Positions 9,657-21,104 of a DNA stretch of 38,257 bases are shown piece after piece. The number at the start of each line of letters is the position of its first letter. The first letter of the stretch is position 1. This DNA comes from Prevotellaceae bacterium (lineage in GTDB: Bacteria > Bacteroidota > Bacteroidia > Bacteroidales > UBA932), in NCBI GenBank assembly GCA_031263185.1, contig JAISGH010000085.1, positions 1-38,257 on the forward strand. Direction: 5' to 3'. The translations under genes and the position numbers were made by a program. The notes below the pieces were generated by a model that searched no databases, was not told the DNA's origin, and saw only the letters and a program-made list of their open reading frames with translations.

Positions 9657-9703
9657 TACACCCATGCGACGAGTGGAAGTGAGGTTGCCATGAAAATTAT
9701 TTG

Positions 9704-9711
9704 TACTTTTG
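9704..9711 (+). promoter_or_regulatory. ndh promoter
   Basis: TACTTTTG matches TAnnTTTG, with TTG at 9685-9687 as a possible -33 element (spacing slightly short). The ATG follows 44 bases after the box. Confidence 0.55.
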
Positions 9712-9755
9712 TACCGTTTTATAAGTAGAATTCAAGTATAAATCAAGTATAAATT

Positions 9756-11102
9756 ATGAGTTTTAATATTCAAAAAACAGAAAAGAAAAGGGTTATAATT
9801 GTTGGTGGCGGATTTGCCGGACTTAAACTTGCAAAACGATTGAAAAATGCTGATTTTGAAGTGGTGCTGATTGATAAAAATAACTATCATCAGTTTTTGC
9901 CGTTGATTTATCAGGTAGCTTCTGCCGGAATAGAGCCCTCTTCTATTTTATTCCCTTTTCGAAAGATTTTTCAAAAGCGCGCTCACCTCTTTTTCCGATT
10001 AGCGGAAGTTCGGGCGATTTTTCCGGAGATGAATATGGTGCAAACCTCCATCGGGAAGGCAAGCTATGATTATATCGTTTTTGCAGCGGGGACTGTCACC
10101 AACTATTTTGGGAGCAAGCATATTGAAGACATCGCCATACCGATGAAGAATGTATCGGAGGCCATGGGGCTGCGCAACGCCTTGCTGGCAAATTACGAAA
10201 GAGCTATAACCTGCGCCACCGAAAAGGAAAGGCAGGAATTATTGAATATCGTGATTGTAGGCGGCGGCGCTACCGGTGTAGAAATTGCCGGCGCTATTTC
10301 GGAAATGAAAAAATACATCCTGTCGAAGGATTATCCCGAAATGGATAACTCGGAGCTAAATATTTACTTAATTGAGGCGTCAGACCGCCTGCTTTCGGGC
10401 TTATCGAAAAAATCGTCCGAAAGCGCCCGGCAATTCTTGCAGGAAATGGGCGTGAACGTTTGGCTAAATGAAAGGGTAACAGGGTATGAAAATTATCAGG
10501 TAACCCTGGAAAGCGGTAAAGCTATTCCGACACGCTCGTTTATTTGGGTAAGCGGCGTGAAGGCGGTAGCAATCGGCAACATGCAAGCGTCGGTTATCGG
10601 GCGGGGCAATCGAATAATCGTAGATGAGTTTAATCGTGTTAAAGGCTATAGTAACATATTCTCCATTGGCGATCAATGCATCCAAACCACCGATGAATGT
10701 TACCCAAGCGGGCATCCGCAAGTAGCCCAGGTAGCCATACAGCAAGCTAAGCAGCTGGCCGAAAATCTGGTTAATCTGGAGCGCAGTAAGCCTTTGAAGC
10801 CGTTTCGCTACCGAGATTTAGGTTCAATGGCAACGATTGGCCGGAATAGAGCGGTTATCGAAATGGGTGCGCTCAGGATGAAAGGCAGGGTGGCATGGTT
10901 TACGTGGCTTGTAATCCATTTGCGGCCGATAGTAGGGTTAAGAAATAAGCTGATTATCCTGCTTGACTGGTTTTGGAGCTACATAACTTACGGCAATTCC
11001 CTGCGGTTTATTGTTTATGCACGAAAAACTAAAGAAATACAGCTCAGGGAAGAGCGGGAAGCCGTCACGCACTGGGGCGAAGATATTTTGGGAGCTGTAT
11101 AG
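9756..11102 (+). CDS. ndh: Type II NADH:quinone oxidoreductase (NDH-2)
   Basis: A single-subunit, non-proton-pumping NADH dehydrogenase that passes electrons from NADH through FAD to quinone on the inner face of the membrane. The FAD-binding GGGFAGLKLAKRL lies near residues 17-29, YHQFLPLIYQVASAGI follows, and the NAD-binding VGGGATGVEIAGAISEM lies near 165. The segment IFSIGDQC near 305 contacts FAD, and the hydrophobic C-terminal part (about 375-420) is the membrane anchor region. Length 448 is normal. The gene is monocistronic and convergent with batE. It is less GC-rich than its bat neighbours. Confidence 0.92.
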   Translation: MSFNIQKTEKKRVIIVGGGFAGLKLAKRLKNADFEVVLIDKNNYHQFLPLIYQVASAGIEPSSILFPFRKIFQKRAHLFFRLAEVRAIFPEMNMVQTSIGKASYDYIVFAAGTVTNYFGSKHIEDIAIPMKNVSEAMGLRNALLANYERAITCATEKERQELLNIVIVGGGATGVEIAGAISEMKKYILSKDYPEMDNSELNIYLIEASDRLLSGLSKKSSESARQFLQEMGVNVWLNERVTGYENYQVTLESGKAIPTRSFIWVSGVKAVAIGNMQASVIGRGNRIIVDEFNRVKGYSNIFSIGDQCIQTTDECYPSGHPQVAQVAIQQAKQLAENLVNLERSKPLKPFRYRDLGSMATIGRNRAVIEMGALRMKGRVAWFTWLVIHLRPIVGLRNKLIILLDWFWSYITYGNSLRFIVYARKTKEIQLREEREAVTHWGEDILGAV

Positions 11103-11125: not shown

Positions 11126-11881
11126 TCAAATGCTCTCTATGGTATTTGCCGGCAGCCACCCCTGGTTGCCGTCGGCTGTTTTTACTTTTTTCCAGCTGCC
11201 AATGGTTTCCAGCGCTACCACTTTTGTTCCCTCGTGGAGCACAAACAAGTCAACGCCTCCCGCGTCGGGCGAAGCTTTGACGGAGGTTACCGGAGCGTAC
11301 ACTATGGCCTCGGAGTGGCTGTTGAGGTGGCGCTTCTCATGCACGGCAACGTAGGTGGACGCCAGCGACAGGCACAGGCAGGCAATGGCAAAGGCAAACG
11401 ATACCTTTTTGCGCGCCGGCGTACGTCCGAATACTACAATGAGCGCCAGCATTAGCGTTACTGTAAAAAGGGCAATGCCTATGGCGCCCCACGTATCAAC
11501 GCCAAAAATACCGCAAAATGCCTGTATCCACGCTACAATGAAGAACTGCTCTATCGGCTCTATTTTGTCCACTATTTGCAGGTTGGAGAGCTCCAAATTG
11601 TAGCGAATATCTTCATCGTCGGGGGCAAGGCGGAGCGCGCGCTCATAGTAGAGGATGGCCTTGGCCATTTCGCCCTGCTTGTAAAACGAGCTGCCGGCAT
11701 TGTAGAATAGCGCCGCGTTGACTTTGCCGCTTTTTTCGAGCTGTAAGTACACCTCCGAAGCCTCGGCGTACTTACCTTCGGAGTAGAGCATATTCGCCTT
11801 TTGCCACGCAGTATCCGCTGCCTGCGCACAAGCAATAAGCGGCAACATTGCCGCACAAAACACAATTGCTATTTTTTTCAT
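11126..11881 (-). CDS. batE: BatE: TPR and SH3-like membrane protein
   Basis: Last gene of the bat cluster, whose products have been linked to aerotolerance and envelope stress in Bacteroides and Leptospira. The 251-residue product has a signal peptide (MKKIAIVFCAAMLPLIACAQA), tetratricopeptide repeats (LYSEGKYAEASEVYLQLEK, ALFYNAGSSFYKQGEMAKA, ILYYERALRLAPDDEDIRYN), two membrane segments around 115-150 and 158-180, and a C-terminal bacterial SH3-like domain (VKASPDAGG...GTKVVALETIGSWKKV..GNQGWLP). I chose ATG 11881. The frame extends to 11959, but those 26 codons are read through a heptamer repeat tract (SDFRIQNSDFRIQNS) and are unlikely to be native. Confidence 0.85.
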   Translation of the reverse strand: MKKIAIVFCAAMLPLIACAQAADTAWQKANMLYSEGKYAEASEVYLQLEKSGKVNAALFYNAGSSFYKQGEMAKAILYYERALRLAPDDEDIRYNLELSNLQIVDKIEPIEQFFIVAWIQAFCGIFGVDTWGAIGIALFTVTLMLALIVVFGRTPARKKVSFAFAIACLCLSLASTYVAVHEKRHLNSHSEAIVYAPVTSVKASPDAGGVDLFVLHEGTKVVALETIGSWKKVKTADGNQGWLPANTIESI

Positions 11882-11894
11882 CACCTTTTTTTTT

Positions 11895-11990
11895 GAATTT
11901 TGAATTCTGAAATCTGAATTTTGAATTCTGAAATCTGAATACCTGACGGCGTAAGCCAATTCAAAATTCAGAATTCAAAATTCAAAATTT
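11895..11990. repeat. Heptamer repeat tracts between batD and batE
   Basis: From 11895 come the 7-mers GAATTTT, GAATTCT and GAAATCT, then the same three again, so two perfect 21-bp units. After a short unique core the tract 11959-11990 is ATTCAAA, ATTCAGA, ATTCAAA, ATTCAAA. The two tracts are roughly inverse, so the spacer can fold back on itself. Confidence 0.85.
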
Positions 11991-11995
11991 CTCCT

Positions 11996-13846
11996 CTACT
12001 TCACCCGCTGCTCCAGCTTGCTGATAACGCCGACGGCTTCGCTGTATAGCTGCGCCATTTCTTTGCGGCCGCTGCCCGGAGCATACCTTGCAAACTCACA
12101 CTCATCAATTACGCTGATGAACGTTTCGATGTACTGCTCTTCGATGCTGCGCTCAACAAATGCTTCGCGCGCGTTCTCGCGCGACAACTCGGCCACAGGA
12201 ATATTAAGCTTGTCGCTCAGGTAGCCCCACATGGCGTGCAGCAGCTCGTCGTAGAAGCCTTGGGCGTTGCCCATTTTGAGCAGCCGGGCAGAATTTTTCA
12301 ATCGTTTTTTCGCAACTTTGTTGGCCTTCCTGTTGCGCACCAGCACCACATTTTGGCTATTTTTTCTGTGCTTTTTCAGCCATGCGTACAGCGCAGCAAA
12401 TGCCAAAATCAGCGCAATGTACAGCAGGTAGAACTGCATGGAGCCAAAAAACAGCCTGTCCTGCTGCGTAAGCGTTACGCCGGTTTTGATGAAGCGTATA
12501 TCTTTTCCCAAAAACTTTATGCCCTCTCTGCGCCCCTCCGACGAGGTGTAGGTTTGCTGCGATTTGGTATCTTTCTCCACCGATATGTCGTGCGCCTGAG
12601 TGTGCAGCGTAACGTACTTTCCGGTGGCGGGGTTGAAGTAGGTGAACTCAACGGGGGGAATGGTGAACTCGCCGGCGCTGCGGGGGATGAACGGAATTTC
12701 AAACTGCCGGTAGCCGCTTGCTCCGGCGTCGGAATTTTTGATGGCATCGGTGGTTTTGGTGTCGTACGGCTCAAAGTCCACAGGCAAATCAACCTTGGGC
12801 ACATTCATCAGCTTCAGGTTTCCGTTGCCCGATATGCGGATGGTAAGCGTGGCAGCGTCGTTGGCTACCAGCTGATTTTTGGAGAGCGACGACTCTATTT
12901 TGAAGCTGCCCACCGCCCCCGAAAACGAGGCGGGCGCTCCGCCGGGAAGCTCCTTGACCCTCACTTTCAGCGCTTTCGATTGCAACGGTTTGCGAATATT
13001 CTGGTAGGTTCCGCCAAAAAAATCATCAAATATGTCGCGCGATCTTGTTCGCACCTGCACTATCACATCTATCTCGTTTGGCGTAATGGTCAGCTCGCCC
13101 GATTGCTGCGGGAAAAGCAGCTGCTTCCACAGCAGACCCACATCGTACACAACCCCGTTTACGTTTTCCCGCGTAAACTTGATTTCCTGCGGCACCTCTA
13201 TGTCCTGACTCCAAAAGCCGTTGTACGTGGGCTTTTTTATATTTTCAAAGCTGCGAATAGAGTTGCCGCGCGTGTACAGCTTGGTTGCAGCAACCAAACA
13301 TTCGCCGCGATACACTTCTGTTTTGCTTAGCGCAACGCCCAAGTACATTGAGTTGTCGCTGCCGGTAGAGGCTGCCGGTTGCTGTTGCGGCTGCTGCCCG
13401 CCTTGCTGCTGTCCGCCGCCACCTTGCTGCGCGGCTCGCGGCTCGCCCTTTACGCTTTCGATGACAAATGGCTGCGTCTGCGCTTCTTCGCTCCCTCCCT
13501 TTATCCTCGCCGTGCCAATGGTAAACTTTCCTTCCTTTTCGGCGTACAGCGTGTAGGTGAACGTGTAGGTTACGCTTTGCGTAACTTTTCCGCCGAGTAT
13601 CTGCATCTGCGTACTGCTTCCCTGCACCGGCCCCGCGGTAACAACAAAACCCTCTATGCTTGGCGTGATAAAGTTGTCAATTTTTCCATTGGCCACAAAT
13701 GTTACGCGAAACATTTCGCCAACCGTAACCACGCGCGGCGCCTGTATTTCCAGCTGCAAGCCCTGGGCGTAACCCTGCGCCGTGCACAGCATGATGACCG
13801 TCGCTGCGAGCATCGCTCTTAACCCGATAGCAAATTTGTTGAACAT
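11996..13846 (-). CDS. batD: BatD oxygen-tolerance protein
   Basis: The 616-residue product has a signal peptide ending at about GYAQG. Repeated Ig-like beta domains follow, the first with QAPRVVTVGEMFRVTFVANGKIDNFITPSIEGF, a typical BatD opening. A Gly/Gln-rich linker lies near 140-160 (GGGGQQQGGQQPQQQ). A single membrane segment lies near 475-495 (FYLLYIALILAFAALYAWL), and the cytoplasmic tail holds YDELLHAMWGYLSDKLNIPVAELSREN. The extracytoplasmic domains probably bind BatA/BatB partners (family knowledge). The gene lies between batC and batE in the usual order. Confidence 0.92.
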   Translation of the reverse strand: MFNKFAIGLRAMLAATVIMLCTAQGYAQGLQLEIQAPRVVTVGEMFRVTFVANGKIDNFITPSIEGFVVTAGPVQGSSTQMQILGGKVTQSVTYTFTYTLYAEKEGKFTIGTARIKGGSEEAQTQPFVIESVKGEPRAAQQGGGGQQQGGQQPQQQPAASTGSDNSMYLGVALSKTEVYRGECLVAATKLYTRGNSIRSFENIKKPTYNGFWSQDIEVPQEIKFTRENVNGVVYDVGLLWKQLLFPQQSGELTITPNEIDVIVQVRTRSRDIFDDFFGGTYQNIRKPLQSKALKVRVKELPGGAPASFSGAVGSFKIESSLSKNQLVANDAATLTIRISGNGNLKLMNVPKVDLPVDFEPYDTKTTDAIKNSDAGASGYRQFEIPFIPRSAGEFTIPPVEFTYFNPATGKYVTLHTQAHDISVEKDTKSQQTYTSSEGRREGIKFLGKDIRFIKTGVTLTQQDRLFFGSMQFYLLYIALILAFAALYAWLKKHRKNSQNVVLVRNRKANKVAKKRLKNSARLLKMGNAQGFYDELLHAMWGYLSDKLNIPVAELSRENAREAFVERSIEEQYIETFISVIDECEFARYAPGSGRKEMAQLYSEAVGVISKLEQRVK

Positions 13847-13853
13847 ACGTATA

Positions 13854-14041
13854 TCAATTAATAATTAATAATTAACAATTAATAATTAACAATTAATAAT
13901 GAATAATTAACAATTAATGATGGAGGACCAACTATTAACAATGAATAATCGTCAACTGTCATTAGAAATTACGAATTGTCAACTGTCAACTGTCAACTGT
14001 CAATTGTTAATTGTTAATTGTTAATTGTTAATTATTAATTA
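13854..14041. repeat. Heptamer repeats forming a long inverted pair between batC and batD
   Basis: The left tract from 13854 is an unbroken run of 7-mers: TCAATTA, then variants of ATAATTA, ACAATTA and ATAATGA (nine units). The right tract ending at 14040 is also 7-mers: CTGTCAA three times, TTGTTAA four times, then TTATTAA. The two are close to complementary, giving a large AT-rich hairpin with an irregular core in between. No gene here. Confidence 0.9.
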
Positions 14042-14854
14042 TCACCAATTTTTATCTGTTGTGCGCTGCTTGGCTTTCTGCGCTTTTTCCTTTTTTACTT
14101 TTTCCTGCGTATCTTTTTCCTGCTGCTCCAGCGCCTGCAACATTCGCTGTGCATCTTCTTTAGAAATTTTTTCCTCTTGCTGCTGCTGCCTGTCCTGCTG
14201 ATTTTGCCGGTCTTGGTTATCCTGATTTTGCGGCTGTTGCTGTTGCTGCTGGTCTTTATTTTCGTCCTGATTATTTTCGTCGTTCTTATTCTGGTCTTGA
14301 TTTTGCTGCTGCGGCTGCGGTTGCTGCTGCTGGAGGTTGCTCATGGCTTGGGCGTAAACCAAGTTTTGCTTGGCCTCCATATCGTTTGGCTTGAGGCGCA
14401 GCGATTTTTTGTACGCCTCAACAGCAGCCCGAAAGTCTTGCTCCCGCATGAAGGCGTTACCCTGATTGTAGTATGCCGCCGCCTTTTGCTCGTCGCTCAC
14501 GGCCGATTCGGCAACGTTTTCGTACAGCTTACGCGCCTGCTCCATTTGCTGCTTGCTTGCTTCGCTCTGCATGTCGGCAGAGTCCAGCTGCTTGTAGAGC
14601 GCGTTGCTCAGGTTAAATTTGGCGTTGGCGCTTTCGGCAACCTTGTCTAAGGCGCGGCGGTATTCTATTTCGGCGGCGGCGTAATCGCCCTTTTTGTACG
14701 CTTTATTGCCGGCCCGTACATCCTTGCGCTCGGCAGGCAGCGCGTAAAGCACGGCAGAAGAAAAGCAGGCGAGCGCAAAAAGCGCAAAAAACCTCTTCAC
14801 CCCTCCGGCGGAGAGGTGCCGAAGCGTAGCCGATGTTAACTCTAATTTTTTCAT
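14042..14854 (-). CDS. batC: BatC: TPR protein with Gln/Asn-rich tail
   Basis: The 270-residue product has a signal or anchor segment (FFALFALACFSSAVLYALPA), TPR motifs (GNKAYKKGDYAAAEIEYRRAL, YNQGNAFMREQDFRAAVEAYKKSLRLKPND) and a very Gln/Asn-rich stretch at about 170-225 that is probably disordered. A charged coiled-coil tail follows (SKEDAQRMLQALEQQEKDTQEKVKKEKAQ). This is the standard BatC layout in Bacteroidetes. I chose ATG 14854 (MKKLEL) over 14905 because 14854 follows hepT by 10 bases, while the longer form would overlap it. Confidence 0.88.
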   Translation of the reverse strand: MKKLELTSATLRHLSAGGVKRFFALFALACFSSAVLYALPAERKDVRAGNKAYKKGDYAAAEIEYRRALDKVAESANAKFNLSNALYKQLDSADMQSEASKQQMEQARKLYENVAESAVSDEQKAAAYYNQGNAFMREQDFRAAVEAYKKSLRLKPNDMEAKQNLVYAQAMSNLQQQQPQPQQQNQDQNKNDENNQDENKDQQQQQQPQNQDNQDRQNQQDRQQQQEEKISKEDAQRMLQALEQQEKDTQEKVKKEKAQKAKQRTTDKNW

Positions 14855-14864
14855 GGCTCTATTA

Positions 14865-15278
14865 CTATGCATTTCGTGTATTTCGTATATCATGAATAAA
14901 CTCACGGAATAATGGCAGCTTTTTCTTTACTATGGCGTAAACTATTTCCAAGTCAATTTTTTCGTAGCGATGAACTATAAAATTTCGGAATTTCACCATT
15001 TCAGTATAATCCGGATTGTTGGAAATGATGCCAAGCTCCTGCACTTTTTTTACCGTATCGGCCGAGCTGCCTGCAGGTGCCTGCTGTTCGAGCGCCAATA
15101 TTCGCTCGCAGGTATCAATCACCGCTTCAATTGCTACCTGCAGAGCGCGCTCCGTTGCTTTTTGCAGCATAGTATTTTGTTGCAGCATGGCAAAAGAGGT
15201 AATCTTCCAGCTTTCGAGCAGGCTTACTTCTTTGTCTATAACCAACAATTTTTTTTCAACTATCCCATTGTACTTCAT
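14865..15278 (-). CDS. hepT: HepT-like ribonuclease toxin (DUF86/HEPN)
   Basis: HepT is a HEPN-fold RNase whose RX4-6HXY motif cuts RNA; here it reads RNFIVHRY near residue 100. The preceding helices, with AIEAVIDTCERIL and PDYTEMVKFRN, are also typical. The 137-residue size fits. It overlaps mntA by 23 bases. In characterised pairs MntA adds AMP to the tyrosine of this motif and so silences HepT; that tyrosine is present. The pair lies in the bat operon between batB and batC, same strand, with only 10 bases to batC. Confidence 0.88.
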   Translation of the reverse strand: MKYNGIVEKKLLVIDKEVSLLESWKITSFAMLQQNTMLQKATERALQVAIEAVIDTCERILALEQQAPAGSSADTVKKVQELGIISNNPDYTEMVKFRNFIVHRYEKIDLEIVYAIVKKKLPLFREFIHDIRNTRNA

Positions 15279-15672
15279 ATCCGCGATACTCCAATCTTTT
15301 TTTCATCCAGTATATTTCGTCCTCGTACAGGCGGCACGTGCGGGTGTAAAAGTTTGTGTACTCCTCCATATTTTCGTCCCGCACAAAAAGCAACTTGCCC
15401 TTGAGCGCCTCAAAAGCCAAAACAGGGTCGGCCTTTTGCAGCACCACAACGTCTATCGGAATGGCGTTCCCGACAACATTTTCTACCTGCGCCTCAACCG
15501 CAAACCGGGCAAACACGTCGCTGCCGGTGTAGTAAACGGCAACATCAACATCGGAGCCGGACTTCACCACCCCACCCTGCGACGAGCCGAATATGTATGC
15601 AAAGCTTATATCGGAAAAATGCTCTCTGATTTTTTGCGCTATCAGCGGAATATCAATATTTTTTGTACACAT
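15256..15672 (-). CDS. mntA: MntA-like nucleotidyltransferase antitoxin
   Basis: The minimal nucleotidyltransferase signature GSX10DXD is exact: GSSQGGVVKSGSDVDVAV, preceded by FAYIFGSS. A third acidic residue is provided by PIDVVVLQKADP. The 138-residue size is normal for MntA. Its expected activity is to transfer AMP from ATP to the tyrosine of HepT (known for the family). A -7 box of its own (15728-15735) lies in the 105-bp gap after batB. Confidence 0.88.
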   Translation of the reverse strand: MCTKNIDIPLIAQKIREHFSDISFAYIFGSSQGGVVKSGSDVDVAVYYTGSDVFARFAVEAQVENVVGNAIPIDVVVLQKADPVLAFEALKGKLLFVRDENMEEYTNFYTRTCRLYEDEIYWMKKRLEYRGYEVQWDS

Positions 15673-15727
15673 GCGTATTTATTGCGGCATCAACCGTTCG
15701 CTATCTCTAAAGGTGTTTATTCTTCTA

Positions 15728-15735
15728 CAAATGTA
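15728..15735 (-). promoter_or_regulatory. Promoter-like box for mntA-hepT
   Basis: On the minus strand TACATTTG fits TAnnTTTG, 56 bases before the mntA ATG, in the only sizeable non-repeat gap of the bat cluster. A TTTG lies further upstream than usual (26 bases), so -33 support is weak. If active it would also feed batC, batD and batE. Confidence 0.45.
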
Positions 15736-15777: not shown

Positions 15778-16785
15778 CTATCGGCTAAAAAGATTCCAGC
15801 TCCTTTTTCGCTCGATGATTAGCAGCTCCAGCACCAGCAACGCAATGGCAACATAAAAAAAGTAGTGGTACTGCTCGTTAAAATCTTCGTAAATAACGCT
15901 CGACAGCTCCTGCTTGTCGAGCTTGCGCACGTCGCTTACAATATCGCTAAGCCCAATGTTGGAGGTGGTTGCGCGTACGTATATGCCGTTGCCTGCGGCG
16001 GCGGTTTTTTCCAGCGTTTCTTCGTCCAAGCGCGTTACCACCATGTTGCCCTGCCTGTCCTTCATCAGCCCGCCCTCCTTGAGCGGAATGGGGCTCCCCT
16101 GCGGCGAGCCGATGCCGATGGTGTAAACTTTTATGCCTTCCTTTACCGCAAGCTGGGCGGCCTCTATGGGGTCGTCCTCATGGTTTTCGCCATCGGAAAT
16201 GATGATGAGCGCGCGGCTTTTTTCGCTTTGCAGCGAAAATGACCGGATAGCCGTGATAATGGCCTTGCCGATAGCTGTCCCCTGTCGGGGTACGATGCCC
16301 GTGTTGATGGCGTTCAAAAACAGCTTTGCCGAAACGTAATCGCTCGTAATGGGCAGCTGAATGTAGGCGTCGCCTGCAAAAACGATAAGCCCTATGCGGT
16401 CGCTGCCCAGCTGATCAACAAGGCGGGCAATGGCTCGCTTGGCATTTTCCAGCCGGTTGGGGGTAAAGTCCTGCGCCATCATGCTGTTCGACACGTCGAG
16501 CGCAATGATGATTTCTGCACCCTTACGCTTTACCTCCTTCACCCTTGCGCCCAGCTGAGGGCGGCAAATTCCCAGCACCAAAAACAGGAACGCCAGCGAC
16601 CACAGCAGCAGCTTTGTCCAACCACGCGCTACCGAGGCGCCAGGCATAAGCTGCCGCAGCGTTTGGATGTTGCCAAACCGCGATAGCGCCCTGCGCCGGC
16701 TGCGCAGGTGCAGCGCGTACAGCAGCGCTGCCAAAGGAATTGCCAGCAGCAAAATAAAGTACTCCGGTTGTGCTAAACGAAACAT
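15778..16785 (-). CDS. batB: BatB: VWA-domain membrane protein
   Basis: The 335-residue product has N-terminal membrane segments (about 8-27 and 57-77), a von Willebrand A domain with the metal-binding MIDAS motif DVSNS (97-101), then AQDFTPNRLENAKRAI, TSDYVSAKLFL, ISDGENHEDDP and a C-terminal membrane segment (about 310-327). The layout matches BatA/BatB family proteins, and the position after batA identifies it as BatB. The second serine of the MIDAS motif is kept, so metal binding is likely. Confidence 0.92.
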   Translation of the reverse strand: MFRLAQPEYFILLLAIPLAALLYALHLRSRRRALSRFGNIQTLRQLMPGASVARGWTKLLLWSLAFLFLVLGICRPQLGARVKEVKRKGAEIIIALDVSNSMMAQDFTPNRLENAKRAIARLVDQLGSDRIGLIVFAGDAYIQLPITSDYVSAKLFLNAINTGIVPRQGTAIGKAIITAIRSFSLQSEKSRALIIISDGENHEDDPIEAAQLAVKEGIKVYTIGIGSPQGSPIPLKEGGLMKDRQGNMVVTRLDEETLEKTAAAGNGIYVRATTSNIGLSDIVSDVRKLDKQELSSVIYEDFNEQYHYFFYVAIALLVLELLIIERKRSWNLFSR

Positions 16786-16791
16786 GGTTTT

Positions 16792-16887
16792 AATTAGGAA
16801 TTACGAATTAGGAATTAGGAATTACGAATTACTAAAACATAATGTACCTCTTTAATTGTTAATTATTAATTGTTAATTATTAATTGC
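16792..16887. repeat. Heptamer repeat tracts between batA and batB
   Basis: 16792-16833 is AATTAGG, AATTACG, AATTAGG, AATTAGG, AATTACG, AATTACT. After a 19-bp core, 16853-16887 is TAATTGT, TAATTAT, TAATTGT, TAATTAT, TAATTGC. Both have strict 7-nt period but use different words. Confidence 0.88.
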
Positions 16888-17889
16888 TCACGGTATTCTC
16901 CTCAGCACCGTCAGCCTCAAGAGCAGCTCGAGGAACAGGCAGCCCAGCGCTATCAGGGCAAACGGCGTGTACTCCTCTTTGTGGTGGATGAGCGAATCTA
17001 CCTCTACCTTGTCGCGCTCAAGCTTGTTTATCTCCCCGTAGATTTCGAGCAGCTTGGTGTTGCTGGTGGCGCGGAAATATTTTCCGTCGGTCATCTCTGC
17101 AATTTTGCGCAGCATATCCTCGTCTATCTCCACCTGCATTTGCTGCATTTGTACGCCAAAGGGCGTCATTGCCGGGTAGGGAGCAACGCCAATGGTGCCT
17201 ATGCCGATGGTGTAAACCCGTATGCCGTACGTTTTGGCAATTTCTGCGGCGGTAAGCGGGGCAACCTCTCCGCTGTTGTTCACGCCGTCGGTGAGCAGTA
17301 TCACCACGCGGCTGACGGATTTGCTGTCCTTGAGGCGGGCTACTGCGGTTGCCAGCCCGTTGCCAATGGCGGTGCCGTCTTCTATCATGCCGCACTCCAC
17401 GTCCTTCATCAGGTTGATGAGCGTAACGCGGTCGGTGGTAAGGGGGCACTGCGTAAAGCTTTCGCCGGCAAACACAACAAGGCCGATGCGGTCGTTGGGG
17501 CGGTCGGCAACAAACTGCGTACCTATATCCTTTGCGGCTTGCAGGCGGTCGGGGGTAAAATCGCGCGCCAACATGCTGCCCGATATATCGAGCGCAATAA
17601 CGATGTCGATGCCTTCGGTATATACGCTCTCTGACTTGGTGGTTGACTGCGGCCGCGCCAGCGCAACAAATATGCAGGCCAGCGCCACGCAGCACAGGCC
17701 AAAGGGCACGTGCTGCAGGTAGTAGCGCATTCCCTTTTTTGCGCCAAGCAACCCGCCAATGCTCGATACTTGCAGCGTTGCCCTGCGCCGGTTAGCCACA
17801 AAAACATACCACGCCGCCAGCAGCGGGAGCAGCAGCAGCAGCCACAAAAATTTAGGTTGCGCAAAAATTATGTCGTTGTATCCGTACAT
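16888..17889 (-). CDS. batA: BatA: VWA-domain membrane protein
   Basis: The 333-residue product has two N-terminal hydrophobic segments (about 12-31 and 62-77), the VWA MIDAS motif DISGS (101-105), ARDFTPDRLQAAK, TTDRVTLINLMKDVE, LTDGVNNSGE and a final membrane segment near the C-terminus (ALIALGCLFLELLLRL). It is the first of the two VWA proteins after the DUF58 gene, as in other Bacteroidetes. Expected role: part of an inner-membrane complex with the other Bat proteins, powered or assembled by MoxR (inferred from conserved neighbourhood). Confidence 0.92.
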   Translation of the reverse strand: MYGYNDIIFAQPKFLWLLLLLPLLAAWYVFVANRRRATLQVSSIGGLLGAKKGMRYYLQHVPFGLCCVALACIFVALARPQSTTKSESVYTEGIDIVIALDISGSMLARDFTPDRLQAAKDIGTQFVADRPNDRIGLVVFAGESFTQCPLTTDRVTLINLMKDVECGMIEDGTAIGNGLATAVARLKDSKSVSRVVILLTDGVNNSGEVAPLTAAEIAKTYGIRVYTIGIGTIGVAPYPAMTPFGVQMQQMQVEIDEDMLRKIAEMTDGKYFRATSNTKLLEIYGEINKLERDKVEVDSLIHHKEEYTPFALIALGCLFLELLLRLTVLRRIP

Positions 17890-17893
17890 AGGG

Positions 17894-17927
17894 ATTTAAA
17901 GATTTCAAATTTCAGATTTCAAATTTA
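17894..17927. repeat. Short heptamer tract before batA
   Basis: ATTTCAA, ATTTCAG and ATTTCAA follow one another with a related unit on each side. The tract fills the whole gap between batA and the next gene and ends in that gene's stop codon region. Confidence 0.75.
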
Positions 17928-19860: not shown

Positions 19861-19892
19861 TAGTTCTTAACTCTCAGTTCTTAACTCTCAGA
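19861..19892. repeat. Heptamer-pair tract between moxR and DUF58
   Basis: AGTTCTT AACTCTC occurs twice in a row, i.e. a 14-bp unit made of two 7-mers, directly after the moxR stop. Confidence 0.75.
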
Positions 19893-20888
19893 TTACGGAA
19901 CCTCCACGGCGTTCAGCACCTGCGTTATGACATCCTCGCTGGTTACGTTTTCGGCTTCGGCTTCGTAGGTAAGCCCAATGCGGTGGCGCAGCACGTCGTA
20001 GCTTACGGCGCGTACATCCTCGGGGATAACGTAGCCGCGTCGCTTGATGAATGCGTAGGCTTTTGCGGCGAGCGACAGGCCGATGCTGGCGCGCGGCGAC
20101 CCGCCGTAGCTGATAAGCCCCTTGAGGTTGCCCAGCTTGTAGTCTTCGGGGGTACGCGTGGCGTAAACGATGTCCACGATGTAGCGCTCAATTTTTTCGT
20201 CCATGTAAACATCGCGCACCACCTGCCGCGCTTTTACAATGTCCTCGGGCTTCAGCACGCACGAGGGCTTGGGAAATTCGCCCGTTACGTTTTGGCGGAT
20301 GATGAACTTTTCCTCCTCTTTTTTGGGGTAGGAGATAACCACCTTGAGCAAAAAGCGGTCAACTTGCGCTTCGGGTAGCGGGTAGGTTCCCTCCTGCTCC
20401 AGCGGGTTCTGCGTAGCCAGCACCAGAAACGGCTCGGGCAGCTTGTAGGTTTGGTCGCCAAGCGTAACCTGCCGCTCCTGCATGGCCTCCAGCAAGGCGC
20501 TCTGCACCTTGGCCGGCGAGCGGTTGATTTCGTCTGCCAGGATGAAGTTGGCAAAAACGGGGCCTTGCTTCACCATAAACTCCTCCTTTTTTTGGCTGTA
20601 AATAAGCGTACCCAAAAGGTCGGCGGGGAGCAAGTCGGGGGTAAACTGTATGCGGCTAAACTTAGCCTCAATAGCGTAAGCCAGCGTGTTGATGGCAAGC
20701 GTTTTTGCAAGGCCGGGAACGCCCTCAAGCAGCACGTGCCCGTTGCTTAGCAGCCCAATAAGCAGGCTCTCGGTGAGGTGTTTTTGGCCTACAATTACTT
20801 TTGACATTTCCATGCTCAGGATGTCAACAAAGTGGCTCTCCTTTTGGATTTTCTCGTTCAGCTCTTTGATGTTTACGTTTGTGCTCAT
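19893..20888 (-). CDS. moxR: MoxR-family AAA+ ATPase
   Basis: A 331-residue AAA+ chaperone-like ATPase. Walker A is GVPGLAKT (56-63), Walker B is ILADEINR near 117, and the sensor segment is LATQNPLEQEGTYPLPEAQVDRF. The C-terminal lid contains GGSPRASIGL. MoxR proteins act with VWA partners in assembly or activation of complexes, here probably DUF58 and BatA/B. It is first in the cluster; the upstream 46 bases lead directly into a fold-back repeat (20930-21104), so its promoter must lie in or beyond that element. Confidence 0.93.
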   Translation of the reverse strand: MSTNVNIKELNEKIQKESHFVDILSMEMSKVIVGQKHLTESLLIGLLSNGHVLLEGVPGLAKTLAINTLAYAIEAKFSRIQFTPDLLPADLLGTLIYSQKKEEFMVKQGPVFANFILADEINRSPAKVQSALLEAMQERQVTLGDQTYKLPEPFLVLATQNPLEQEGTYPLPEAQVDRFLLKVVISYPKKEEEKFIIRQNVTGEFPKPSCVLKPEDIVKARQVVRDVYMDEKIERYIVDIVYATRTPEDYKLGNLKGLISYGGSPRASIGLSLAAKAYAFIKRRGYVIPEDVRAVSYDVLRHRIGLTYEAEAENVTSEDVITQVLNAVEVP

Positions 20889-20929: not shown

Positions 20930-21104
20930 ACTATAGTGAATCAAGGGGTTGAGACCTCACCCCCGGCCCCTCTCCAAAGGAGAGGGGAGACGGCACACGA
21001 GGGTAGCGGCGACGACTCTGCTCTCTGCTCCCCCTCTCCTTTGGAGAGGGGCCAGGGGTGAGGTCTCTTGTACTTCAACTTTTGCAACCCTTGATTCACA
21101 CTAT
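20930..21104. repeat. Fold-back (MITE-like) element upstream of moxR
   Basis: Ends GTGAATCAAGG (20936 on) and CCTTGATTCAC (to 21099) are inverse. Inside, GACCTCACCCC is followed by a 20-bp inverted hairpin CCCCTCTCCAAAGGAGAGGG, and the mirror arrangement occurs near 21030-21064. The short direct repeat ACTAT flanks it (20930-20934 and 21100-21104). It is non-coding and lies between moxR and whatever drives it. Confidence 0.8.

Follow-up and report, generated by a model that had tools for sequence, protein, structure and literature searches.

A HepT/MntA-type toxin-antitoxin pair between batB and batC: probably one genus-restricted insertion, inherited and eroding

In the stretch of DNA analysed here (the window; 38,257 nt), the moxR-bat cluster is interrupted between batB and batC by two small overlapping genes resembling a toxin-antitoxin pair, and the question raised is whether such a pair, once inside a conserved operon, becomes tied to its neighbours. 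It looks as if it mostly does not, the start region of batC being a possible exception. The genus provides a natural series at this one locus, with the junction empty, occupied, toxin-mutated, antitoxin-lost or nearly erased, in which a type VII pair is seen to enter a conserved operon and to decay.

The cluster lies on the minus strand. It includes a moxR-type gene at its head (19893-20888), a DUF58-type gene and a membrane-protein gene, these three being named from sequence without a family scan, followed by batA (16888-17889) and batB (15778-16785) for VWA proteins, the latter with a VWA domain plus a BatA N-terminus, mntA (15256-15672), hepT (14865-15278), batC for a TPR protein (14042-14854, the start being taken as the ATG at 14854), batD (11996-13846), and a batE-like gene for a TPR protein (11126-11959). 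The genes from batA onwards were assigned from open reading frames and family matches. The mntA and hepT genes overlap by 23 bp, and a 10-bp gap separates the hepT stop codon, which ends at 14865, from the batC ATG, which starts at 14854. Given this spacing and the shared direction, mntA-hepT is likely to be co-transcribed with batC.

MntA (138 aa) has an intact GSX10DXD motif from residue 29, and HepT (137 aa) an intact RX4HXY motif from residue 98. Among shuffled proteins of the same composition, these motifs were found in 48 and 55 of 20,000, respectively (~0.25% each). Pfam matches were obtained to HepT-like for HepT (E 2e-27) and to Polbeta for MntA (E 5e-16), and the NCBIfam equivalogs HepT_toxin and MntA_antitoxin gave 91.8 and 67.3 bits, respectively, where the cut-off is 60 for both. 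The closest solved structures for the two proteins are HepT/MntA entries, e.g. 5yep. Among the anti-phage defence models of PADLOC, HepT was without a match and MntA gave only weak PDC-S09 matches. The preliminary description of this DNA had reported a pair with both motifs complete, overlapping, and placed between batB and batC at a short distance from batC, all of which is confirmed by the reading frames and family scores. By its sequence, the module is of a known kind, a type VII HepT/MntA toxin-antitoxin system, in an unusual place. Four further HepT-like genes occur in the genome of the window (L001, L003, L004 and L005), all of them overlapping with, or adjacent to, a small nucleotidyltransferase gene.

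Members of the HepT family are RNase toxins, and those of the MntA family are adenylyltransferase antitoxins that add AMPs onto the Tyr of the RX4HXY motif. In the window, MntA would inactivate the HepT RNase via AMP addition to this residue. The Shewanella oneidensis HepT has been shown to be a toxic RNase that is neutralised by MntA through AMP transfer to the Tyr, and when the Tyr is changed HepT is still toxic and its neutralisation is weaker (PMC7641770). The window pair is similar to that of S. oneidensis (SO_3166/SO_3165; PDB 5yep, 6m6u-w, 7bxo, 7aer) in length and motifs and matches it in sequence (HepT, E 1.7e-6; MntA, E 6e-4). It differs in being distant in sequence and in lying inside a bat cluster.

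The pair was not found to be a regular part of bat clusters, being absent from the batB|batC junction outside the genus and in the congener G007. A BatB search covered 60 relatives, and the junction was inspected in those loci that were fetched. Outside the genus, batC homology followed batB without an MntA or HepT match in 21 of 22 loci, and no batC was seen in the flank of the remaining one (L015, G011). In G011, batB and a batA-like match lie on different contigs (G011:C1 and G011:C7), with no batC after batB, and the cluster may be split. Other Bacteroidales moxR-bat clusters have, in the relatives read, the same batA-batB-batC-batD order and, unlike the window, no mntA-hepT between batB and batC. 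The uninterrupted junction that the preliminary description had proposed to look for in relatives is present, both in these 21 loci and in G007, where batB and batC are 37 bp apart and the module is absent.

Of 159 genomes sampled from the order, 81 gave HepT-like matches and 145 gave BatB; among the matches listed, HepT lies within 3 kb downstream of BatB only in the window's genome out of the 145, an incomplete count since the weakest HepT matches fall outside those listed. In G131, from another family of the order, a HepT match is located ~0.9 kb upstream of moxR (L086, G131:C110, about 9695-9949). The nearest MntA-HepT outside the genus is that of the MAG Dysgonamonadaceae bacterium Cc175_bin72 (L085), where MntA is 64% identical and mntA likewise overlaps with the HepT frame that follows it, which contains RNFIMHRY; it differs in that the 6 kb upstream are devoid of bat genes, and the contig ends inside hepT. 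In the samples searched, mntA-hepT at batB|batC is restricted to the genus. The congener genomes may be termite-gut MAGs, judging from the style of bin names such as Gx481_bin120. Literature searches on toxin-antitoxin pairs, either of termite-gut Bacteroidales or as operon insertions, yielded nothing specific.

The genus is represented by eleven draft genomes, the window's included. Eight of these, again with the window, have the pair or its remnants at batB|batC, and batC is kept in all eight. A complete pair is present in three (the window, G001 and G010, the 5' end of mntA in G010 being cut by a contig end). The RX4HXY motif is altered in two others, judging in each case from a single base in a draft MAG: G005, which has a second nucleotidyltransferase gene (MNT2) as well as mntA and hepT, has His in place of the AMP-accepting Tyr, and G008, which has an lgt copy (lgt2), an apparently frameshifted MNT2, mntA and hepT, has Arg in place of the catalytic motif His. 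Since a change of the Tyr weakens neutralisation in S. oneidensis, the natural version in G005 is informative. In G009, hepT stands alone and mntA is absent. G003 has lgt2 and a decayed hepT, the frame of which reads into batC as a 379-aa open frame (L069), and in G002 only the last ~50 nt of hepT remain before batC, beside a HigA-like gene and a partial HigB-like stretch. No BatB or BatC match was obtained in G004 and G006, and the junction is incomplete or missing in G002, G004 and G006.

A pair that is present intact or in ruins in eight congeners, always with batC kept, is most simply explained as gained once, inherited, and eroding. G007 is basal in the genus in the bat protein tree; hence, a single gain after the G007 split is the simplest account. 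As lgt2 (G003 and G008) and MNT2 (G005 and G008) are each represented in both of the remaining subclades, the ancestral insertion probably comprised lgt2, MNT2, mntA and hepT. The trees of mntA-hepT and of the bat proteins are congruent only with respect to the window and G005, and G010 takes another position in the former, with moderate support (84), so that exchange within the genus is possible.

The lgt2 gene lies between batB and the toxin-antitoxin genes, at 2701-3624 of L070 in G008 and in L069 in G003. The copies of these two genomes share 83% identity, and their identity to the other lgt of G008 is about 54%. That lgt2 is a relocated essential lgt was rejected, as a further lgt match at ~50% identity lies elsewhere in each of the eleven genomes (in pieces in G003 and G007); lgt2 is thus an extra copy.

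Pairwise dN/dS values, obtained by a simple counting method without a test, were 0.14-0.30 for MntA and 0.10-0.42 for HepT, as compared with medians of 0.11 for BatA, BatB and BatC and 0.18 for BatD. Such low values indicate that the pair was constrained during a large part of its history and is not simply inert cargo. The highest mntA/hepT values are those between the two closest genomes, the window and G005, and the constraint may be relaxing recently.

The reading that we prefer is the following. A single insertion into the batB-batC junction, in an ancestor shared by most of the genus, would have placed the pair there, next to MNT2 and an extra lgt copy. From then on, the pair would have been passed down together with the bat genes and probably transcribed by operon read-through. 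Purifying selection acting on the pair as such would have maintained it over much of this period, with inactivation or loss on several occasions. Very probably, this is an ordinary type VII pair from one genus-restricted insertion, inherited and eroding, on which the integrity of the operon does not depend and for which no link to bat function has been demonstrated.

It is also conceivable, although we incline against it, that batB|batC is a tolerated landing site at which HepT/MntA, MNT2 and HigBA each arrived separately. This would account for MNT2 and lgt2 in two genomes each, for the HigA-like gene and partial HigB-like stretch that precede batC in G002, and for two ORFs between batD and batE in the same genome. 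However, the events are few and all come from one operon of the genus, and the five HepT-like and six PIN matches in the window genome overall indicate that such genes may land in many places. Moreover, the arrivals are compatible with a single insertion followed by erosion, and the two explanations do not exclude each other. The two ORFs of G002 occupy the 593 bp between batD and batE (L078, 3455-4047), are without a Pfam match, and form a putative pair in that their layout resembles a toxin-antitoxin pair. After batA of the same genome, a gene with a weak Rce1/CPBP-like match precedes the contig end (L079, G002:C90 end), so that the batA-batB junction there may also be interrupted.

If a single insertion is eroding, a part of it might nevertheless have become useful to batC. 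The 3' end of hepT could have been captured as the translation-initiation region of batC, the toxin gene decaying while its tail is kept, which would be an entrenchment of a selfish module in a conserved operon. The stretch concerned comprises the hepT 3' end and the 10-bp gap that leads into the batC start (14855-14910, minus strand). Seven congeners have it almost unchanged, most of them with a gap of 4-10 bp, and it is still present in G002 and G003, which have otherwise lost hepT or retain it in decayed form; furthermore, the BatC N-termini differ in G007 and G034, both of which are without the module. Capture of the tail nonetheless seems rather doubtful, since in G010 hepT and batC are 184 bp apart and batC starts differently, the stretch is duplicated in G008, and the survival of a short tail could be due to chance or recency. 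The n-region of the BatC signal peptide (LTSATLRHLSAGGVK; 14780-14854) varies in sequence and length between congeners, as though through insertion of short repeat-like DNA.

The preliminary description had proposed closer ties, in which transcription of batC-E would start partly from a promoter of the toxin pair, marked by a TACATTTG box just before mntA. A motif scan located this box upstream of mntA (15728-15735, minus strand), but at 55 bp from the mntA ATG, so that "just before" was loose. Bacteroidota promoters have TTTG and TAnnTTTG elements 19-21 bp apart. Upstream of mntA, no TTTG was found at 19-21 bp from TACATTTG, and TAnnTTTG is commoner in the window than expected (49 vs 31 in shuffles). 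Bacteroidota promoters are outside the coverage of the sigma-70 scan. When the window was aligned with G005, the first 72 nt from near the batB stop, TACATTTG included, were found to correspond. These nucleotides run into MNT2 in G005, and a similar stretch (TACTTTTG) is located ahead of MNT2 in G008. As MNT2 is missing from the window (approximate site of the loss relative to G005, 15700-15722 on the minus strand), the TACATTTG stretch now precedes mntA. Read from this alignment, the box is joined to mntA by deletion of MNT2; it may be active as a promoter. No such box was seen in the 23-bp batB-mntA gap of G001. A promoter of the pair's own for batC-E was rejected, since the box traces to the MNT2 upstream region and the two-element pattern is absent.

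Nor did the suggestion hold that loss of the module would cut the operon and so stabilise the pair: mntA is lost in G009 and only remnants of hepT are left in G003 and G002, with the batC-D-E order kept, and in neighbouring genera batB and batC adjoin without the pair. Nothing was found that links the pair to oxygen or envelope stress, on which it had been thought to report. In Leptospira biflexa, deletion of all bat genes left oxidative tolerance unaltered (PMC3557215). Although the co-directional position 10 bp from batC, the TACATTTG upstream and the purifying selection on the pair would agree with a stabilising or stress-reporting role exerted through its own promoter, such a role is highly improbable in view of natural losses that leave batC-D-E in place, the absence of the pair from most relatives, a box that belongs to the MNT2 upstream region without a -33 element, and the G001 gap in which no box was seen.

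Some minor features of the window were also recorded. An Rfam scan of the window gave no match, and terminator-like sites are about as frequent as in shuffles (20 vs a mean of 16.5). An inverted repeat with 37-nt arms that are 97% complementary lies upstream of the moxR-type gene (20951-21067). For some Bacteroidetes, heptamer (TAACTGA) repeats have been described in intergenic regions (PMC4679880). Arrays of tandem repeats with a period of 7 bases are present in the window at 11894-11989, 13856-14044, 16792-16886, 17900-17926 and 19862-19891; they occupy most of the native bat junctions, and both junctions flanking mntA-hepT are without them. The same pattern of arrays was observed in several congeners, the strongest case being the MNT2-mntA gap of G008.
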